A stretch of DNA of 64,000 nucleotides. Origin: Ferrimonas futtsuensis DSM 18154. GTDB lineage: Bacteria; Pseudomonadota; Gammaproteobacteria; Enterobacterales; Shewanellaceae. A model generated the notes under the pieces. That model was given only the letters and a program-made list of their open reading frames with translations, ran no database searches and was not told where the DNA came from. The translations under genes were made by a program, and so were the position numbers. The stretch's first letter is position 1. Every line of letters starts with the position of its first letter. Below, in pieces: positions 9,465 through 38,278 of this stretch. The stretch lies in NCBI RefSeq assembly GCF_000422645.1, contig NZ_AUGL01000017.1:1-64000 (forward strand), written 5' to 3'.

Positions 9465-9632
9465 CTTTCTGTGCCAGCCTGCCAGTACCTCTGCCGGCAT
9501 ACCTCACTGCAACAGGGTTCACGCCGTCGCCGGGGGCCATTAAGGAAGGCACCGTACACTCCCTGTCCAGGGCAGGATAGACACAGCCCCGTTGACCCAG
9601 CCTGTGCCCTCGCCAGCGCGGTACTGAACTCG

Positions 9633-12600
9633 CTACACCGGCTCCTGCTCTTTGCTGGCTGCCGCCGCCTCGTCCAGATACCTGCTCAGGTCCACCTCGT
9701 CCATCTGCGAGGGTTTGAGGAAGCGCTCGGCGTACTCCAGATAGACGCCGGTGGTGAGAAACAGCCGGAACACCTCCTGATCCACGTGGTCGTCCTTGAC
9801 CATCTTATGCAGAATGTTGATGGCGACGCTCAGAGACTTGGCCTTCTTGTAGGGGCGGTCATCGGCAGTCAGGGCTTCGAAGATGTCCGCCAGCACCAGA
9901 ATGCGTTCCCCTACGGAGAGTTGATCGCCGGTCAGTCGCCTCGGATACCCCGTCCCCTTGAGGGTTTCATGGTGGGTGGAAGCGTACCTGGGCACATTGG
10001 CCAGCTCTGGTGGGAACGGCAGGCTTTCCAGGATTTTAATGGTGCTGACCGTGTGCTCATTGATGCGGAAGCGCTCTTCCTCATTCAGGGTGCCTTTGCG
10101 TATGCACAGGTTGTAGAGTTCACCCTGGTTGTTTTGCAGCTCTGTGGGCTCCAGCATGATGCCGAGACTGGGGTCATAGCTGTGCTTGCGCTCCCAGGCG
10201 ATGCGATGCTCCGGTTTGTCCGACAACAGGTTTTCCGTGACCGGCAGCTGTGCGGCGCTGTCGCCTCGGCGCTTCTCCTCCAGAGGGCCCAGACCCAGAT
10301 TGTCATCGAAATTCCGCTGCCAGGTTCGCCTGGCGATGCCGTGAAGGCGCTCGATGCTCTCATCCGCCATGAACTCGCCGCCTACGTTGCATCTGGCGAC
10401 AAACTCAAACTGTTCTTTGAGCTGTCGCTGCGCCAGATCCCGCTTCTCCCTGAGTTTAGGCTCTTGATTGGCGGCCGCCATCACCGCCTTGAGGTAGCTG
10501 ATCTCCTCTTCGCGCCACAGCACCTCGAAGCGGGTGCGGATCTCATGAATGCGGTTGTAGGTGGATTCGAGCTTGCTGCCCTTGTCCACCACATGCTCCG
10601 GAGTGCTGATCTTGCCGCAGTCATGGAGCCAGGCCGCCAACTTGAACTCACGATGTTTGTCCTTGTCCTCGATGGAGAACCCCCGGAACGACTCTTCCTG
10701 GCTGATGCTGGCCTCACGCGCCAGCATCAAACCCAGTTCCGGAACGCGATAGCAATGGCCTCCGGTATAGGGGGACTTGTCATCAATGGTCTGAGCGATC
10801 ACCTCGATAAAGGAGTCCATCAGCTTCTGCTGCTGAGCTTCATGTTTGGCAATAGCGGCGGACATCTCAACCAGAGATCGGGAGAGTTCATCCACCTCCT
10901 TGATGACGGAGGGCTGCCTGTGGACCTGCTGGTACTGACGGCGCATCACCTTTTCGTTCTCTTTGGCCAGCTGACGAATGGGGTTGACTATCGGGTTGGC
11001 CAACAGGTAGCAGAACGGCAGCAGTGCCAGAATGCAGATCGCCGTCGCGGCGGCCGACACCAGCACTTCGCGACGACTGGCTTGCAACACCGTGTCCACA
11101 TCCAGCGCCAGGGCAAAGAAATGATCCTCTCCCGCTCGCAATGGCTCGATGTAGAGGAAACTGTCGCGGCCCTCCAGAGGTAAGCGGTTCAATTTGCCCT
11201 GAAGCAAGCGCTCCTGGGCCGTGGTGATCAACGCCTTGTAGGGAACGGTCAGGGAATCCTGCTGCCGGATCTCGTCCATATTACCCAGCCAGCGCTTGGC
11301 CAGATATTGCCGGTCCTCCGGGCCCACCTGAGCCAAGGCCCGCTCAAACAGTGCGGCCAGGGGCGCCAGCTCAGGTTTGAATACCGCTCTGAGGCCGGCA
11401 TCGAAGTTGACCTGACCTATGTCCAGATAGGGCTCGATGTGGAGCCCGTCGAGGAAGTAGACCCGTTTGGTGTAATCCAGAATGATGCGGGTCTCTATGG
11501 TGGCGTCCGCTTCGCCGCTGGTGACCGCCTTCAGTGCTTCGACAACACTGGCCGCTTCGACAATGCGAATCTGTGGATAAGCGCGTCGAATCTCAGGAAT
11601 GATGGACCAGCCGGCAGGGATCGCCAGAACAGCGCCGTTGAGCGCCTCCAGACTGCGGTATCTGCTGCCATCGCCCCGCGTCGCCAACGCCATGGGCATC
11701 TCCACCATGGGGGAGGAGAACAGGCCCCACTGGCTGTTGCTGCCGGTTCGATACACCGGCGTCAGGATCTCAAGATCGCCTCGCTGGAAATGCTGCACCA
11801 GGGTTTCCCAGGACACGCCATTGATGAACTCCACCGACAACCCAAGGCTTCGGGCCAGCATCTGTATCAGCTCAACCGTGTACCCCCTGGGCTGACCGGC
11901 GATGGAGTAATCCAGCGGCGCCCAGTCCGTCTCGTTGGCAATGCGCACCGTCCCCAGAGTGTCGAGGTAGCTGCGCTCCTGTTCAGTGAGGGGCAGTGCC
12001 GGCAACTCTCGGCGAGGCATCTCTGTGGCGGCGTTGCTGGAGGCCACCAACTTGCCACTCAGGTCATAGAGAAACACTTCACTGTGTTCGATGGGCGTGC
12101 CGGTCGCCAGTTGCCCGGAGAGAAACTGCGACATGGTGGACAGGGCGATGTCCACAGCGATCACCGCCCCACTCTCCTCCATCACCATGGAGAAAGTCTG
12201 TCCGGGGGCCTGCAGGTGCTGAAACAGGTAGGGCTTGGTGCGACTGGCATTGATGGTGTCGGCTATCTGGAACCAGGGGCGGGTTGTCGCGTCATAGTCG
12301 CTGGGCTCCACCAATTGGTGACTCACCTCGAACGCCTCATTGAGAAACAGGGTGCGCTTAACCCGCTGTCCCTCCTCCTGCTGAATGAGCACCTTGGCAA
12401 ACCGGTCCGTCAGGGATGCCCCCAACTGCTCTCGAATCTGCGGGCTGGCCTCCAGGTTGATCAGCTCATAGAAGTCGCCGTTGGCCAGGCCCAGATAGAC
12501 CGCATAGAACTCGTTGTTGTTCTCCAGCAGATTGGCGAACAGCCGATCGGTCGCATGCTGATCAACCTGACCGCCTTCGACCAGGGCCGCGTTACGCGCA

Positions 12601-33316: not shown

Positions 33317-33982
33317 TCACATCGCATGAACGTACTCAATGGCGAACTTCACCAGCTCAGAGGCACTCTCTAACCCCAGTTTCACGCGCATCTTCTGCCG
33401 AAGGGCATCGACAGTCTTGACGCTGATATCCAGCCTTTTGGCGATCTCCTTGGTCGGCACCCCCTTGCCGACCAGTTGAAACACCTCCAGCTCCCGGTCC
33501 GACAGCACACCGACGTTCTTGACCCCCTCGGTCTGAAACTCCTTGGGGTTGACCACCTTGTTCAGCAAAAAACCGGTCATCTCATCACTCAGGTAGACCT
33601 TACCGGCCCGAACCTGGCGGATGGCGTCGATCAGCACCTCGGGAGGTTCACTCTTCATCACGTAACCGTAGCCGCCGGCGCGAACCACCCTCTCCGCGTA
33701 GATGGATTCAGGGTGCATGGAGAAGGCGATAACCCTCACTTCAGGGTGAGACCGGCGTATCCGCTTGATCAGCGCCAGACCACTGTCATCGCCTAGGGAG
33801 ATATCCACCACGGCGATCTCTACCGCCCGCTCCGCCAACAATTGCAAAGCCGACGCCTCGCCGTCGGCCTGACCGCACACCGTCATATCCCGCTCATGAC
33901 CGATCAACATCGCCAGCCCCTCGCGGACGATGGCATGGTCATCGACCACCAATATCCGCACCTTTGCGCCTGTCCCGGTCAT
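33317..33982 (-). CDS. LuxR/NarL-type response regulator
   Basis: 221 residues from the ATG at 33982, overlapping the kinase stop by four bases. The receiver domain has D14-D15 and the phosphate acceptor D60 (VVDISLGDDSG). The C-terminal helix-turn-helix is LSDRELEVFQLVGKGVPTKEI with SVKTVDALRQKM. Its nearest known scheme is NarL/UhpA with a HisKA_3 kinase. It very likely controls the divergent cytochrome-flavoprotein operon through the TACCTAT palindromes. Confidence 0.92.
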   Translation of the reverse strand: MTGTGAKVRILVVDDHAIVREGLAMLIGHERDMTVCGQADGEASALQLLAERAVEIAVVDISLGDDSGLALIKRIRRSHPEVRVIAFSMHPESIYAERVVRAGGYGYVMKSEPPEVLIDAIRQVRAGKVYLSDEMTGFLLNKVVNPKEFQTEGVKNVGVLSDRELEVFQLVGKGVPTKEIAKRLDISVKTVDALRQKMRVKLGLESASELVKFAIEYVHAM

Positions 33983-34986
33983 TCCCTCTCCTCCTGTCCC
34001 GGCTGCCTGGGCAACTCGCAACAGACGGTGACGCCGTTATCGCCGGAGTGAATTTGCAGCGAAGCTCCCAGCACCGACGCGCGGTGTTTCATGATCTTCA
34101 GCCCCATACCATCGGCACCCTCCCACTCTGAGCGCAGGCCCAGGCCATCATCAGCGACCTCCAGCCGCAAGTCCCCCTTACTGGCGGTCAGAGTCACCTC
34201 TATCACCGCACAGCCGCTGTGCTTAAGGGCGTTGTGGATCGCCTCATGGGCGATCAGATACAGGTTCGAGGCGATCAGGTTGTCCTCGATTCGGACCCGG
34301 CCCAGCTCCCGGTAGTGGCAGGCCACCCCAAACAGCGCTGGAACCGAGTCGGTCAACCTGGCCATGGCGACACTAAGCCCCTCAGGCACATCCGCCACCC
34401 GGCTTAACCCCTGCAGTACATCGGCCATCAACCCCTTGGCCCTGGCCGCCGACGCCTTGAGCGTCTCTGCCATGGACAGCAGCTCCGCATCCCCGCGGTC
34501 CAGCCGCTGAACCAGGGCACTGGCGACAAAGGCGATGCCGGTCAGCTCCTGGCCGACGCCGTCATGCAGGTCGTGGCCGATTCGCTGCCGCTCTGCGGTC
34601 GTCAGCCTGACCAACTCCCGCTCCAGGGCTACCTTGTCGGACACATCAATCACCATACAGTGGGTTTGGATAAACCCGCCCCGCTCATCGTAGCGGACCT
34701 TGCCGTGCATCACGACGTGCACCAGTTCGCCGTTACGGTGTTTCAGGGTAAAGGCGATGTCCCTGGCCTCCCCGCGGCGCTTAAACTCCGGAAAGGAGAC
34801 CGCCCGATGGTATTCGACCCTGTCGTGCAGAATGCTTGCAAAGGTACATCCCAGCAGCTCCTGCTCGCCGTAGCCCAGCAGGGTGGCAAAGGCACGGTTG
34901 CAATCGATGATGTTGGCATCGACATCCAGGGACAGATAGCCCAGCGGCACATTGTCGAACATCAACCTGTAACGGTCATCACTCAT
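33979..34986 (-). CDS. PAS-domain histidine kinase, HisKA_3 type
   Basis: About 335 residues from the ATG at 34986; a TTG two codons earlier is the alternative. One PAS domain (RYRLMFDNVPLGYLSLDVDA, about 5-125) precedes the dimerisation helix with the phosphorylated His in RIGHDLHDGVGQEL (near 137). The ATPase domain has AHEAIHNALKHSG (N box) and VADDGLGL (G box). There is no membrane helix, so it senses a cytoplasmic cue, for example redox state or a ligand in the PAS pocket. It is co-translated with the response regulator. Confidence 0.9.
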   Translation of the reverse strand: MSDDRYRLMFDNVPLGYLSLDVDANIIDCNRAFATLLGYGEQELLGCTFASILHDRVEYHRAVSFPEFKRRGEARDIAFTLKHRNGELVHVVMHGKVRYDERGGFIQTHCMVIDVSDKVALERELVRLTTAERQRIGHDLHDGVGQELTGIAFVASALVQRLDRGDAELLSMAETLKASAARAKGLMADVLQGLSRVADVPEGLSVAMARLTDSVPALFGVACHYRELGRVRIEDNLIASNLYLIAHEAIHNALKHSGCAVIEVTLTASKGDLRLEVADDGLGLRSEWEGADGMGLKIMKHRASVLGASLQIHSGDNGVTVCCELPRQPGQEERE

Positions 34987-35226
34987 CGCCAATAGAGTCG
35001 CCCCATTCTAAAAAACTGATACTTAAGTCGCTCGTCAACTACACCCCGAGCAACGGCTCAACGCCGAATCACTCAGATGAATATAATCCATCATTAACTA
35101 ATTCTGATCGAGGGAATTCGTTAAAACGTGCATCAAATCGCAAAATCAATACAGAGTATCCCACGGTATTTATGAGTGCGAAAAGAACCTTCCCCTCGAT
35201 GCACTGAAGATGTTACCCGCTCGACG

Positions 35227-35243
35227 TAGGTAGTTTTACCTAT
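35227..35243. promoter_or_regulatory. Palindrome with NarL-type heptamer, distal site
   Basis: TAGGTA, four bases, then TACCTA(T) forms a perfect 6-bp inverted repeat. TACCTAT at 35237-35243 fits the NarL heptamer TACYYMT. It lies 229 bases before the cytochrome start and 240 bases before the kinase start. Confidence 0.55.
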
Positions 35244-35342
35244 ATCGTCTCCAGGCCATGTTTCCACCGTCACAAATCCCGGTGCCACGGGAATAATTTT
35301 CTGACTCAAGATGTCGAGCTTATTAACATCGTACTCCCCCGC

Positions 35343-35361
35343 ATAGGAGGCATTACCTATG
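35343..35361. promoter_or_regulatory. Palindrome with NarL-type heptamer, proximal site
   Basis: CATAGG, eight bases, then CCTATG is an inverted repeat containing a second TACCTAT (35354-35360). The two TACCTAT copies are 117 bases apart, about eleven helical turns. It lies roughly 110 bases before the cytochrome start. The rest of the 34987-35471 leader is AT-rich and holds no gene. Confidence 0.55.
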
Positions 35362-35471
35362 CAGCAACAGGGATATGCCCGGTAGAATTTCCACCTTCGG
35401 ACAATACAATCTTAGCCGAGCATTAACATGACTCAACAATCTATGGTTTATAAGCTATCTGGATAAATATA

Positions 35472-35807
35472 ATGAAAAGTTTATCTCTACTGTTAACGGC
35501 AACAATATTGTTCTCCTCCGGCACCTTAGCCACCGAGCTCGGACTGCAAAAAAGCCACCTTAAACAGGGAATCAAATGCGCTTCCTGTCACGGCAAAGAG
35601 GTCTCTGCAGCCATACGCAACCCAAGCTGTCTCAACTGCCATGAGTCATTCGAAACACTGGGCCAGCGCACCGCTGACATGGCTCTGAACCCTCATCTCA
35701 GCCCCCACTTCAAAGATCTGGATTGCACCGCGTGTCATAGCGACCACGACAAGCTGAACAACTTCTGCCAGGACTGTCACGGTCCAATCACCCGTAAAAA
35801 CAAATAG
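35472..35807 (+). CDS. Small periplasmic tetraheme cytochrome c
   Basis: 111 residues. The signal peptide covers about 1-20. Four heme sites CXXCH lie at 36-40, 53-57, 85-89 and 99-103, with free histidines at 29, 75, 79 and 92 as likely second ligands. Length and heme pattern match the tetraheme domain of Shewanella flavocytochrome c3 and the free small tetraheme cytochrome. It lies 15 bases before a flavoprotein gene and most likely feeds electrons from a membrane quinol oxidase to it. In FccA both parts are one protein; here they are split. Confidence 0.93.
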   Translation: MKSLSLLLTATILFSSGTLATELGLQKSHLKQGIKCASCHGKEVSAAIRNPSCLNCHESFETLGQRTADMALNPHLSPHFKDLDCTACHSDHDKLNNFCQDCHGPITRKNK

Positions 35808-35822
35808 AAGCCTAGGGAGATA

Positions 35823-37352
35823 ATGATGAAAGGTAATTTTAAACTCACTCTGCTCAGTTGCGCGATGGCAATGGCCAGCCACTGTGCCTTCGCAAAAACC
35901 ATCAACCTGAATACCGACATCGCCGTTATTGGTGGCGGTTCAACCGGAATGTCCGCTGCCGTTGCCGGCGCCGAAAAAGGCGCCAAGGTGATTGTACTGG
36001 AAAAAAACGTATACCTTGGCGGCAGCTCAGCTTTCGCCGAAGGTTTATTTGCCGTCGAAAGTGAAAGCCAACGTCAACAATCCTATGGCCTCTCCAAAGA
36101 TGAGGCGTTCAAGCATATTGTCGAGTTTTCACATTATAAAACCAATATCCCGCTGATTCGCGATTTTGTAAACCACTCTGCCGATAATATCGACTGGCTT
36201 CATCAGCAGGGCATTGAGTTCAAGGCGATTCAAATATCCCCAACCGAACCTCTGGTATGGCATGAGATTGAAAAGAAGGATCATCTTATCCACGGCGCGG
36301 TGCTGATCGGTGCGCTGCAGGAGAAAGCCAAGGAGATGGGGGTGGAGATCATGACCCGCACCCCGGCCAGCAGCCTTATCTATGAAAGTGGCAAGGTGAC
36401 CGGGGTAAAAGCCAAGGACCACAAGGGTAACGATATCGTTATCCACGCTAAGGCGGTCATCATCGGAACCGGCGGCTTTGGCAACAGTGTGGAGAAGATC
36501 AACGAGTGGACCGAGTTTGACGGCACCAAGTTCAAGCCGACCCTGCCACTGAACAAGACCGGCGATGGCATCGAGATGGCCCGCAACATCGGCGCGGATC
36601 ACGAAGGCGAAAACCTGATGCTTCATCCGGGCACCGAGGGCAAGGGGATCATTCCCCTGGGCGCCCTGTACACCATGACCTGGCAACCCAACAACATGTG
36701 GGTCAACAACCACGGCGAGCGGTTCGTGGATGAGGCGATCGCCTTCAGCTTTGCCCAGGCCGGTAACGCCATCGCCCGCCAGCGAGACAATTACGCCTGG
36801 GCCATCTTCGACGACTACGCCGTCGATTACGCCGCCACTACCGGCGTGGACAACGGCGTGGGCGTGATGGTGCCGGTCACCACCAAGCTGAGCAACATCC
36901 GCCAGGAGATTAAGCAGGCCCTGGCCGCCAAGGGCAATAACTTCAAGAGTGCCGACTCCATAAAAGGGCTGGCCAAGGAGATCGGCGTTTCCGCCAAGAC
37001 GCTGCAGCTGAGCTATGACAACTACAACAAGTATGCCGGCCAGCACTACGACGAGGAGTTCGTTAAAGAACACCGCTGGCTGCGCCCCATCGATCACGGC
37101 AAGCTGTACGCGGTCAAGCTGCTGCCCTACCACTTCACCTCCATCGGCGGATTGAAGGTCAACCGCGAACTTCAGGTACTCGGCGCCAATGAGCAGCCCA
37201 TTCCCGGCCTGTACGTCGGCGGCAACGATGTGGGTGGCCTCTACTCCGACACCTACACCCTGTGGGCCTCTGGCCACGCCTTCGCCTGGGCTACCTACTC
37301 GGGCCGCAAGGCGGCACTGAGTGCCGTTGACCATATGAAGCACAGCAAATGA
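35823..37352 (+). CDS. Periplasmic flavoprotein reductase, fumarate-reductase family, unknown acceptor
   Basis: 509 residues (or from the adjacent second ATG). A signal peptide ends near residue 24 (CAFA). The FAD motif IGGGSTGMSAAVAG is at 36-50, TGDGIEMARNIGA near 245, and the capping-domain region with GERFVDE near 300 retains the Arg that acts as proton donor in FccA. The clamp residues for fumarate are absent: the usual TEAVRG segment is replaced by LGALYTMTW, and the terminal ANRLGGN is replaced by YSDTYTLWASG. The end resembles ketosteroid-dehydrogenase-like and acrylate-type paralogues. I infer reduction of an enoate or aromatic acceptor other than fumarate, with electrons from the upstream cytochrome. 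Confidence 0.88.
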   Translation: MMKGNFKLTLLSCAMAMASHCAFAKTINLNTDIAVIGGGSTGMSAAVAGAEKGAKVIVLEKNVYLGGSSAFAEGLFAVESESQRQQSYGLSKDEAFKHIVEFSHYKTNIPLIRDFVNHSADNIDWLHQQGIEFKAIQISPTEPLVWHEIEKKDHLIHGAVLIGALQEKAKEMGVEIMTRTPASSLIYESGKVTGVKAKDHKGNDIVIHAKAVIIGTGGFGNSVEKINEWTEFDGTKFKPTLPLNKTGDGIEMARNIGADHEGENLMLHPGTEGKGIIPLGALYTMTWQPNNMWVNNHGERFVDEAIAFSFAQAGNAIARQRDNYAWAIFDDYAVDYAATTGVDNGVGVMVPVTTKLSNIRQEIKQALAAKGNNFKSADSIKGLAKEIGVSAKTLQLSYDNYNKYAGQHYDEEFVKEHRWLRPIDHGKLYAVKLLPYHFTSIGGLKVNRELQVLGANEQPIPGLYVGGNDVGGLYSDTYTLWASGHAFAWATYSGRKAALSAVDHMKHSK

Positions 37353-37372
37353 TGGCCGGAGAGAATCGAATT

Positions 37373-38278
37373 ATGAAGCCGAAATGGATCCATTTACGGC
37401 AGTTGGCCCTGCCGATGCTGCTGGCGGCCTGCCCCAACGCCCAGGCCACCGAATATGGCGGCGGCGCCTACCCCAATGGCGTCGAAGGGTTTATGGCGGG
37501 CGCCCTGCCGCCCCCGGGCCTGTACTACATGAACTACCTCAATCACTACAGCGTGAACCGGATGAACGACAGTGGCGGCGACCCGCTGCCGGTGGAGTTC
37601 AAGCTGAACGCCACCAGCGACGTCTCCCGTATCGCCTACATTACCGATCACAAGCTGTTCGGTGCCAACTACGGCATCTATGTGGTGCTGCCGCTGGTGC
37701 ACCTGAGCGCCGAGATGGCCATGGGGCCGACGCAGCTCTCCTCCACCGACTCCGGGCTGGGTGACATCGCCTTCTCGCCCCTGGTGCTCTCCTGGCACAC
37801 ACCGGAACTGCATTTCGGAGCGGCGCTGGAGATCGTGGCGCCCGTCGGCGACTTCGATGCCGACAGGCTGGCCAACATTGGCCGCAACTACTGGACGGTA
37901 GAGCCGGTGTTTGCCATCACCTACCTGCCCGCCTCCGGACTGGAGCTGTCGGCCAAGTTCATGTACGACCTGAACTTCGAGAACGGCGACACCCACTATG
38001 AGTCCGGCGACGAGTTCCATTTCGACTATGCGGTGGGCTACCACCGTGATAACTGGACCTATGGCCTGGCCGGTTACTACTACAAGCAGGTGACCGACGA
38101 CAAGCTCAACGGCCAGACAGTCGGAGACGGTAACCGGGGCGAAGCCTTTGCGGTTGGGCCCGCGGTGATGTACAGCGGCCAGGGATGGTCCATCGAAGCC
38201 CGCTACCAGGCAGAGGTGATGTCGGAAAGCAGGCCGGAGGGTGACAAGCTGTGGCTGAAGGCGTCAGTGGCGCTGTAA
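37373..38278 (+). CDS. Outer-membrane barrel of the SphA/MetA phenol-degradation type
   Basis: 301 residues from the ATG at 37373. A signal peptide (LPMLLAACPNAQA) is followed by a barrel with the opening TEYGGGAYPNGVEGFMAGAL and PPPGLYYMNYLNHY, which is characteristic of this family. Members are found with degradation genes for aromatic compounds and are thought to admit them through the outer membrane. It is the third gene of the cytochrome-flavoprotein operon and hints that the electron acceptor is aromatic or hydrophobic. Confidence 0.85.
   Translation: MKPKWIHLRQLALPMLLAACPNAQATEYGGGAYPNGVEGFMAGALPPPGLYYMNYLNHYSVNRMNDSGGDPLPVEFKLNATSDVSRIAYITDHKLFGANYGIYVVLPLVHLSAEMAMGPTQLSSTDSGLGDIAFSPLVLSWHTPELHFGAALEIVAPVGDFDADRLANIGRNYWTVEPVFAITYLPASGLELSAKFMYDLNFENGDTHYESGDEFHFDYAVGYHRDNWTYGLAGYYYKQVTDDKLNGQTVGDGNRGEAFAVGPAVMYSGQGWSIEARYQAEVMSESRPEGDKLWLKASVAL

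Follow-up and report, generated by a model that had tools for sequence, protein, structure and literature searches.

A VprA-like flavoprotein in a putatively regulated cytochrome and outer-membrane barrel module of Ferrimonas futtsuensis, a candidate for anaerobic respiration on uncharged alkenes

Organization of the locus

We describe a five-gene module at positions 33317-38278 of a 64,000-nt stretch of the Ferrimonas futtsuensis DSM 18154 genome (4.30 Mb); the whole stretch is called the window below. A regulator-kinase pair is divergent from an operon encoding a cytochrome, a flavoprotein and an outer-membrane barrel, and open reading frames and Pfam matches confirm the places and families of the five genes given in a preliminary description of this DNA. 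The flavoprotein belongs to a VprA-like branch in which the carboxylate clamp of the fumarate reductase FccA is lost. The locus is well supported as a module, and with moderate confidence we read it as a periplasmic anaerobic respiration on an uncharged aromatic or hydrophobic alkene, i.e. a substrate of the non-carboxylate class. Its features are as follows.

33317..33982, minus strand: NarL/FixJ-type response regulator, receiver and GerE helix-turn-helix (Pfam PF00072, 80.2 bits; PF00196, 52.1 bits)
33979..34992, minus strand: soluble PAS-HisKA_3-HATPase histidine kinase (Pfam PF00989, PF07730, PF02518)
35227..35242, no strand: gapped palindrome TAGGTA-GTTT-TACCTA, a proposed target of the regulator, within the 479-bp spacer that separates the divergent genes
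35344..35359, no strand: second, imperfect copy of the palindrome with 2 mismatches (script scan)
35472..35807, plus strand: small tetraheme cytochrome c of 111 amino acids, presumed electron donor (PF14537, Cytochrom_c3_2, 64.7 bits)
35823..37352, plus strand: secreted VprA-like flavin adenine dinucleotide (FAD) ene-reductase (NF053717, 346.4 bits; PF00890, FAD_binding_2, 189 bits)
36261-36263, 36720-36722 and 37254-37256, plus strand: codons of flavoprotein residues H147, R300 and Y478, respectively
37349..38278, plus strand: COG4313/Phenol_MetA_deg outer-membrane barrel of 309 amino acids including the signal (PF13557, 251.2 bits)

The regulator and kinase genes share 4 bases, as do those of the flavoprotein and the barrel, and the three plus-strand genes are tightly packed. 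The cytochrome carries four CXXCH motifs, at residues 36, 53, 85 and 99, and signal-like N-termini are seen by eye on both the cytochrome and the flavoprotein. The barrel lies far above the PF13557 cut-off of 22 bits and within the expected length of ~270-320 residues; it weakly matches (E 0.00069) the structure 4rl8, which we take to be that of Pput2725. Channels of the COG4313 kind have been proposed to serve the uptake of hydrophobic or amphipathic compounds, TcpY being connected with trichlorophenol and SphA with sphingosine (excerpt of PMC4493636).

The base composition changes within the locus. The third-position G+C content is 0.48-0.60 across the spacer, the cytochrome gene and the first ~450 bases of the flavoprotein gene (35000-36300), jumps within the latter from ~0.5 to ~0.8 near 36270, and is 0.76-0.86 for most of the remainder of the gene and for five measured neighbour genes. 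A sliding-identity comparison aimed at a mosaic origin of the flavoprotein gene showed no clear donor switch, and a scan for sigma-70 promoters and terminators gave no excess above shuffled sequences.

Family placement and predicted fold of the flavoprotein

The best NCBIfam model for the flavoprotein is VprA (NF053717, E 2.6e-103), the vinylphenol reductase which converts 4-vinylphenol to 4-ethylphenol, and the next model reaches 193 bits. Membership in VprA proper is rejected, as the score lies below the curated cut-off of 600 bits; the positive control, a plasmid protein of Lactiplantibacillus plantarum (L168), attains 783.8 bits. The VprA gene of this control adjoins a LysR regulator on a mobilizable plasmid, with IS5 transposases on the flanks.

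A maximum-likelihood tree of 65 rows separates 59 VprA-like from 6 FccA/UrdA-like sequences with a split support of 100/100, and places the window flavoprotein in a clade of 19 rows (support 100/99). The relatives retained are the best 80 of 439 found; the tree took 20 of these 80 loci, six (L051-L054, L082, L083) entering through a second copy from the whole-genome set. Outside the tree are 14 similar loci (L061, L063-L065, L067-L069, L075, L076, L078-L081, L102), as well as 46 loci whose match is weak, short or broken (L084-L101, L103-L130).

The fold, predicted from 44 rows and modelled as protein alone (FAD and ligand left out), has a mean predicted local distance difference test score of 92.3 and a predicted TM score of 0.88. 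In Foldseek comparisons with the PDB, the query-based TM score (TMq) is 0.78 for the ketosteroid dehydrogenase 7p18 (0.72-0.78 for this group), 0.76 for UrdA (6t86), 0.70-0.73 for cyclohexanone dehydrogenase, and 0.63-0.69 for FccA.

Active-site residues

The host's own FccA (L006), with four hemes and with TEAVRG and ANRLGGN intact, was used as a yardstick. Residues were mapped by two alignments, one of 65 rows and a HMMER pairwise alignment to FccA chains; the FccA numbers (H365, T377, E378, R381, R402, H504, R544) are those which we assume to apply, and were placed by motif. The proton donor R402 corresponds to R300 in both alignments, while E378, R381, H504 and R544 are replaced under both, so that the earlier statement of a kept Arg in the GERF region and two replaced clamp segments holds. 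In the 65-row alignment H365, T377, E378, R381, H504 and R544 fall on P269, L282, Y283, T286, T439 and Y478; the HMMER alignment sets E378 against M285 and R381 against Q288, and concurs on R402, H504 and R544. The fate of H365 and T377 depends on the alignment (P269 and L282 in the first, H268 and T284 in the second). H268 is His in 15 of the 19 clade members, and H437, located two residues ahead of the H504 position, is His in 9 of them. Might the clamp residues have merely shifted? For the arginines this is answered by the lack of any Arg in the flavoprotein between residues 254 and 300 or between 448 and 495.

Across the tree, the position of R544 is Tyr in all 59 VprA-like rows and Arg in 5 of the 6 rows of the FccA branch, the sixth having a gap. 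H147 is His in 58/59 VprA-like rows vs 0/6 in the FccA branch, and the Arg at R402/R300 is kept in 65/65. The window flavoprotein thus has the Tyr, the His, the proton-donor Arg and the tree position of the VprA-like branch. The altered clamp is a hallmark of this branch and not a peculiarity of the window flavoprotein; the idea that it is the only member with a lost clamp was rejected, since the whole branch shares the change, including the lactobacillar protein above the VprA cut-off. The clade of the host has a signature of its own: W287 is found in 18/19 of its members and S483 in 19/19, vs 0/40 for each outside it.

In UrdA, whose substrate has one carboxylate, the contacts to this carboxylate are Arg560, Gly563, Arg411 and His520, described as conserved in the fumarate reductase family (excerpt of PMC7921117). 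The counterparts of Arg560 and His520 are lost in the flavoprotein. With the carboxylate-holding Arg and His gone, a neutral phenolic or ketone-type alkene is a likelier substrate than an enoate. VprA reduces vinylphenol, vinylcatechol and vinylguaiacol, none of which has a carboxylate (excerpt of PMC10295242).

Distribution of the module

A match to the VprA model (E <= 1e-60) is present in 14 of 146 Shewanellaceae genomes, and the window-type module, i.e. the adjacency of cytochrome, flavoprotein and barrel, in 8 of them: the host and seven Shewanella loci (L035-L041). Among the 14 genomes of the host's own genus in the set, only the host has it. In four of the seven Shewanella loci (L038-L041) the kinase-regulator pair is divergent to the operon, as in the host. 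Outside the Shewanellaceae, kinase, regulator, flavoprotein, barrel and a larger cytochrome (6-7 CXXCH motifs) occur together in seven loci: a Desulfuromonadales metagenome-assembled genome (MAG; L055), a Geobacteraceae MAG (L056), Deferribacterales (L057, L059) and Seleniivibrio (L175, L176, L178); for L174-L193, the gene lists of L174-L182 and L193 were read. The recurrence of the cytochrome-flavoprotein-barrel order in Shewanella, and of related orders in Desulfuromonadales/Geobacteraceae and Deferribacterales, exceeds what a chance arrangement would give. The respiratory type first proposed for the module is supported.

A PF13557-like barrel stands beside all 19 clade rows, recognized by Pfam for the window and L193, by BLAST for 16 and by eye for L149. 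The barrels of Brenneria are just 26-27% identical by BLAST, which found in these loci (L058, L060) neither a related cytochrome nor a kinase-regulator pair. The barrel family extends beyond the clade, as one such barrel lies near a second VprA-like flavoprotein of the host (contig 9, 15030-16529; L002, L044). This paralogue is 33-36% identical to the window flavoprotein, has a small cytochrome nearby as well, and is ~90% identical to proteins of two other genomes of the genus (G023, G031).

The closest relative outside the Shewanellaceae, among the best 80 of 439, is a 61% identical flavoprotein of the MAG UBA2219 (L054/L193). The gene order there is cytochrome-flavoprotein-cytochrome-flavoprotein-barrel, followed by two HGD-D proteins and one BcrAD_BadFG protein, of the benzoyl-CoA-reductase type; a sigma-54 activator with XylR_N (100.7 bits) is encoded upstream on the opposite strand. 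A major facilitator superfamily (MFS) transporter, which perhaps serves the product or the substrate, is seen near the module in several relatives, by Pfam for L055 and otherwise by eye.

In 274 sampled Gammaproteobacteria, the host genome gives the sole flavoprotein match at E <= 1e-80. In the phylum of the Clostridium MAG, 6 of 249 sampled genomes match the VprA model at E <= 1e-80, and none passes its cut-off. The Seleniivibrio MAG (G430; L174-L183) has fourteen VprA-model matches within a single genome (E <= 1e-40). A small cytochrome of their own accompanies many of those read, together with a barrel-like protein (of the MetA type, or another of ~410-460 residues) and an MFS transporter, the latter two partly recognized by eye; the layout is one of paired reductase and porin. 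In Pectobacterium (L062), Serratia (L066), Edaphovirga (L072) and Dickeya (L073), a VprA-like reductase is clustered with proteins which by eye resemble ferredoxin, NrfD, an MFS transporter and a small flavin mononucleotide (FMN)-binding protein; these clusters apparently use another electron route.

Two-component system and palindrome

The kinase (HisKA_3 and HATPase domains) and the regulator (Response_reg and GerE) form a pair of the NarL/FixJ kind, with the motifs HDLHDG, HEAIHN and DDGLG and the H-box histidine of the kinase at residue 143. No 19-residue hydropathy window of the kinase exceeds 1.6, and with no membrane-spanning stretch it presumably senses from the cytoplasm. With 337 residues it is shorter than nine unbroken homologous kinases (468-524 residues), in which a further sensor part may be present; the kinases of L059 and L178 are each divided between two open frames. 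The regulators of the other 11 kinase-regulator loci are 43-55% identical to that of the window.

The host genome has a single exact copy of the palindrome TAGGTA-N4-TACCTA, the one in the divergent spacer, and exact copies recur in the same spacer of L038, L039, L040 and L041, of which the last two are close relatives and not independent. One-mismatch versions lie at the module in L055 (twice), L059 (twice), L175 and L178. The 12 kinase-regulator loci thus include 5 with an exact site and 9 with a site of at most one mismatch; under a first-order model, a match of this kind has a chance of <= 0.008 per spacer set. The background of 49 loci (L061-L102 and seven others; 733,741 bases), in which kinase-like and regulator-like open frames never occur together in a locus, gave 0 matches. 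The half-site TACCTAT fits the NarL heptamer. From these sequence features, the pair most likely controls both the module operon and itself, and the conserved palindrome agrees with the locally acting two-component system of the preliminary description. That the kinase senses the compound which is reduced, as first suggested, is a guess.

Discussion

The nearest characterised member of the flavoprotein's branch is VprA, with which it shares the equivalents of Arg300, His147 and Tyr478 and the loss of the FccA Arg clamp. Unlike L168, which has a LysR neighbour and no signal peptide visible by eye, the window enzyme is secreted and accompanied by a tetraheme cytochrome, a barrel and a two-component system. 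FccA belongs to periplasmic cytochrome-linked respiration. The FAD domain, the fold and the proton-donor Arg are common to the window flavoprotein and to FccA and UrdA of Shewanella, but the carboxylate-binding Arg and His are not; moreover, the heme domain is fused in FccA and here is a separate 111-residue tetraheme protein, and no FMN-binding family, as in the FMN-bearing N-terminal domain of UrdA, is found among the Pfam matches. A separate tetraheme cytochrome is known from the Mrd/Mcc methacrylate system of Geobacter sulfurreducens AM-1, where it forms an apparently horizontally transferred operon with a periplasmic flavoprotein (excerpt of PMC4427408). The likeness to Mrd/Mcc is one of gene layout, Mrd being outside the 65 tree rows; the substrate there is a small carboxylate, and the excerpted text describes neither a barrel nor a two-component system (PMC4427408).

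The window barrel shares the PF13557 family and the proposed hydrophobic or amphipathic uptake with Pput2725, TcpY and SphA; the known channels are tied to degradation or to the sphingosine response, whereas this one is coupled to a periplasmic reductase. StyS/StyR and TodS/TodT are aromatic-sensing PAS-type systems with a NarL/FixJ regulator and a palindrome with a 4-bp spacer. The window pair differs from them in its short HisKA_3 kinase, its half-site and its association with an electron-acceptor module. What is new here is the combination of a VprA-like reductase with a tetraheme cytochrome, a COG4313 channel and its own two-component system, together with the residue rule of the branch.

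In the proposed mechanism, a compound of hydrophobic or phenolic nature would cross the outer membrane through the barrel. Quinol would deliver electrons to a NapC/CymA-type cytochrome from another locus, and this would hand them to the small tetraheme cytochrome, from which they would reach the flavoprotein's FAD, a supply resembling that of Mrd/Mcc or FccA. There is no quinol dehydrogenase in the cluster and three NapC/CymA-family proteins over the cut-off are encoded elsewhere in the host genome, so that the term self-contained, used in the preliminary description, was too strong. The C=C bond would be reduced by hydride transfer from the reduced FAD and protonation by Arg300, after which the product would leave. 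The oxygen of a phenol or carbonyl would be bound by Tyr478 (with Gly484) and His147, in place of the Arg and His that bind the carboxylate in fumarate and urocanate reductases. The soluble PAS kinase and the NarL-type regulator would switch both divergent transcripts through TAGGTA-N4-TACCTA.

The likeliest single substrate, put forward tentatively, is 4-vinylphenol (hydroxystyrene) or a close phenolic alkene. Phenolic acid decarboxylase, which makes vinylphenols, is found in 3 of 146 Shewanellaceae genomes, all three of them module-bearing (Fisher 1.1e-4). In G040 and G050 it lies ~219 kb and 155 kb from the module, respectively, and G060 has it on a separate contig. Among the open-access papers listed by a search, none deals with respiration on vinylphenols by its title and start of abstract, and the reduction of ferulate via CoA esters is a different route (excerpt of PMC13101492).

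Several observations weigh against the preferred reading, that is, respiration on an uncharged alkene. In a gyrB tree, the three decarboxylase genomes fall into one four-species clade whose fourth member bears the module and has no decarboxylase; since they represent one lineage, the co-occurrence is weak evidence and is not counted as independent (22 of 30 genomes passed the threshold of this tree, which does not include the module-bearers G117, G128 and G139). The host also lacks the decarboxylase, as do four further Shewanella genomes with the module and the six genomes of other families in which a clade member was traced, so there vinylphenol, if it is the acceptor, would need a source in the surroundings or a different pathway. 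The flavoprotein is only 31.5% identical to L168, and paralogues of other clades outscore the window clade on the VprA model (Pectobacterium 396 bits, Clostridium 418 bits), so the model singles out neither this clade nor its substrate; the VprA-like superfamily probably spans several substrates. The control protein seems to lack a signal peptide, and the Enzyme Commission number of VprA, 1.3.1.74, implies NAD(P)H. When the Foldseek matches are ranked by E-value, FccA and UrdA lead. If H268 and T284 have survived at the positions of H365 and T377, they may, with H437 near the H504 position, leave some acid-binding capacity. As for regulation, no kinase-regulator pair was found in L035-L037 (searched within 14 kb), nor in L058, L060 and L054; no palindrome with at most one mismatch is present in L056 (one two-mismatch site), L057 and L176, and L059 has one further match outside the module.

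Among the other explanations, an enone or cyclic-ketone reductase, i.e. a ketosteroid or cyclohexanone dehydrogenase running in reverse with Tyr478-Gly484 on the carbonyl, is unlikely but keeps an appreciable chance. It would suit the TMq values given above. In ketosteroid dehydrogenase, Tyr487 and Gly491 promote the keto-enol change of the substrate ketone (excerpt of PMC5348764), and by analogy Y478 and G484 may play a similar part on a phenol or carbonyl oxygen. In a profile search, the flavoprotein is aligned with the 4c3x chain up to profile position 477, set against residue 507, which is compatible with this role and no proof of it. However, the spacing is unequal (Y478-G484 vs Tyr487-Gly491), the VprA model outscores the ketosteroid dehydrogenase models (346 vs 143 bits for PRK12844), and no steroid genes were seen by eye beside the modules in the gene lists read, no family search having been aimed at them.

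The preliminary description named an aromatic or hydrophobic enoate as the substrate. The aromatic or hydrophobic character is in line with the COG4313 barrel and with the XylR-type and benzoyl-CoA-reductase-type neighbours in L054/L193; the enoate is less well supported, with the equivalents of Arg560 and His520 lost and VprA substrates devoid of a carboxylate. We consider it unlikely that the enzyme is a cinnamate-like enoate reductase which binds the carboxylate by residues other than the FccA clamp, e.g. H268 or H437. Cinnamate reduction is known elsewhere in the wider flavoprotein family, H268 and T284 may take the positions of H365 and T377 by the HMMER alignment, and at least one VprA-like paralogue (L070) adjoins an OprD-family porin (9601-10827; PF03573, 126 bits). 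The OprD family carries carboxylates, and other VprA-like enzymes may thus act on acids, but the porin in the window clade is of the COG4313 kind, and the lost Arg544 and His504 equivalents are those whose UrdA counterparts hold its single carboxylate (excerpt of PMC7921117).

Somewhat less probable still is a detoxification or redox sink, in which a toxic phenolic or quinoid compound is removed in the periplasm with no support of growth. A precedent is Cgr2, a distant flavoprotein of the wider family, which reduces digoxin without a growth advantage (excerpt of PMC5953540). One Seleniivibrio genome has three complete modules (L175, L176, L178), whose separate cytochromes and barrels look rather like a respiratory investment. 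Respiration by way of cytochromes is well known in the lineages of the module's hosts. A diverged fumarate or other dicarboxylate reductase would share the common fold, the conserved R300 and possibly H268 and T284, but is very improbable with four clamp residues replaced in both alignments, and a fumarate reductase is rejected on these residues and on the presence of the motif-intact FccA in the same genome, in support of the earlier view that the substrate is not fumarate.

The preferred reading, a respiration on uncharged alkenes, would bring respiratory enzymes into a branch characterised so far by the enzyme of a fermenting lactobacillus. The residue rule (the clamp Arg replaced by Tyr, together with His147) would sort annotated fumarate reductases into likely carboxylate and non-carboxylate ene-reductases, and the module would supply a concrete list of substrates and a promoter site. 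It is conceivable, and no firmer than the assignment of vinylphenol itself, that Shewanellaceae, Desulfuromonadales and Deferribacterales possess an anaerobic respiration which is regulated and dedicated to vinylphenols or other uncharged phenolic alkenes like them, with acceptors free of carboxylate and an outer-membrane channel of its own. If so, the decarboxylation products of hydroxycinnamates, and with them the breakdown of plant phenolics, would be tied to energy conservation in anoxic places.

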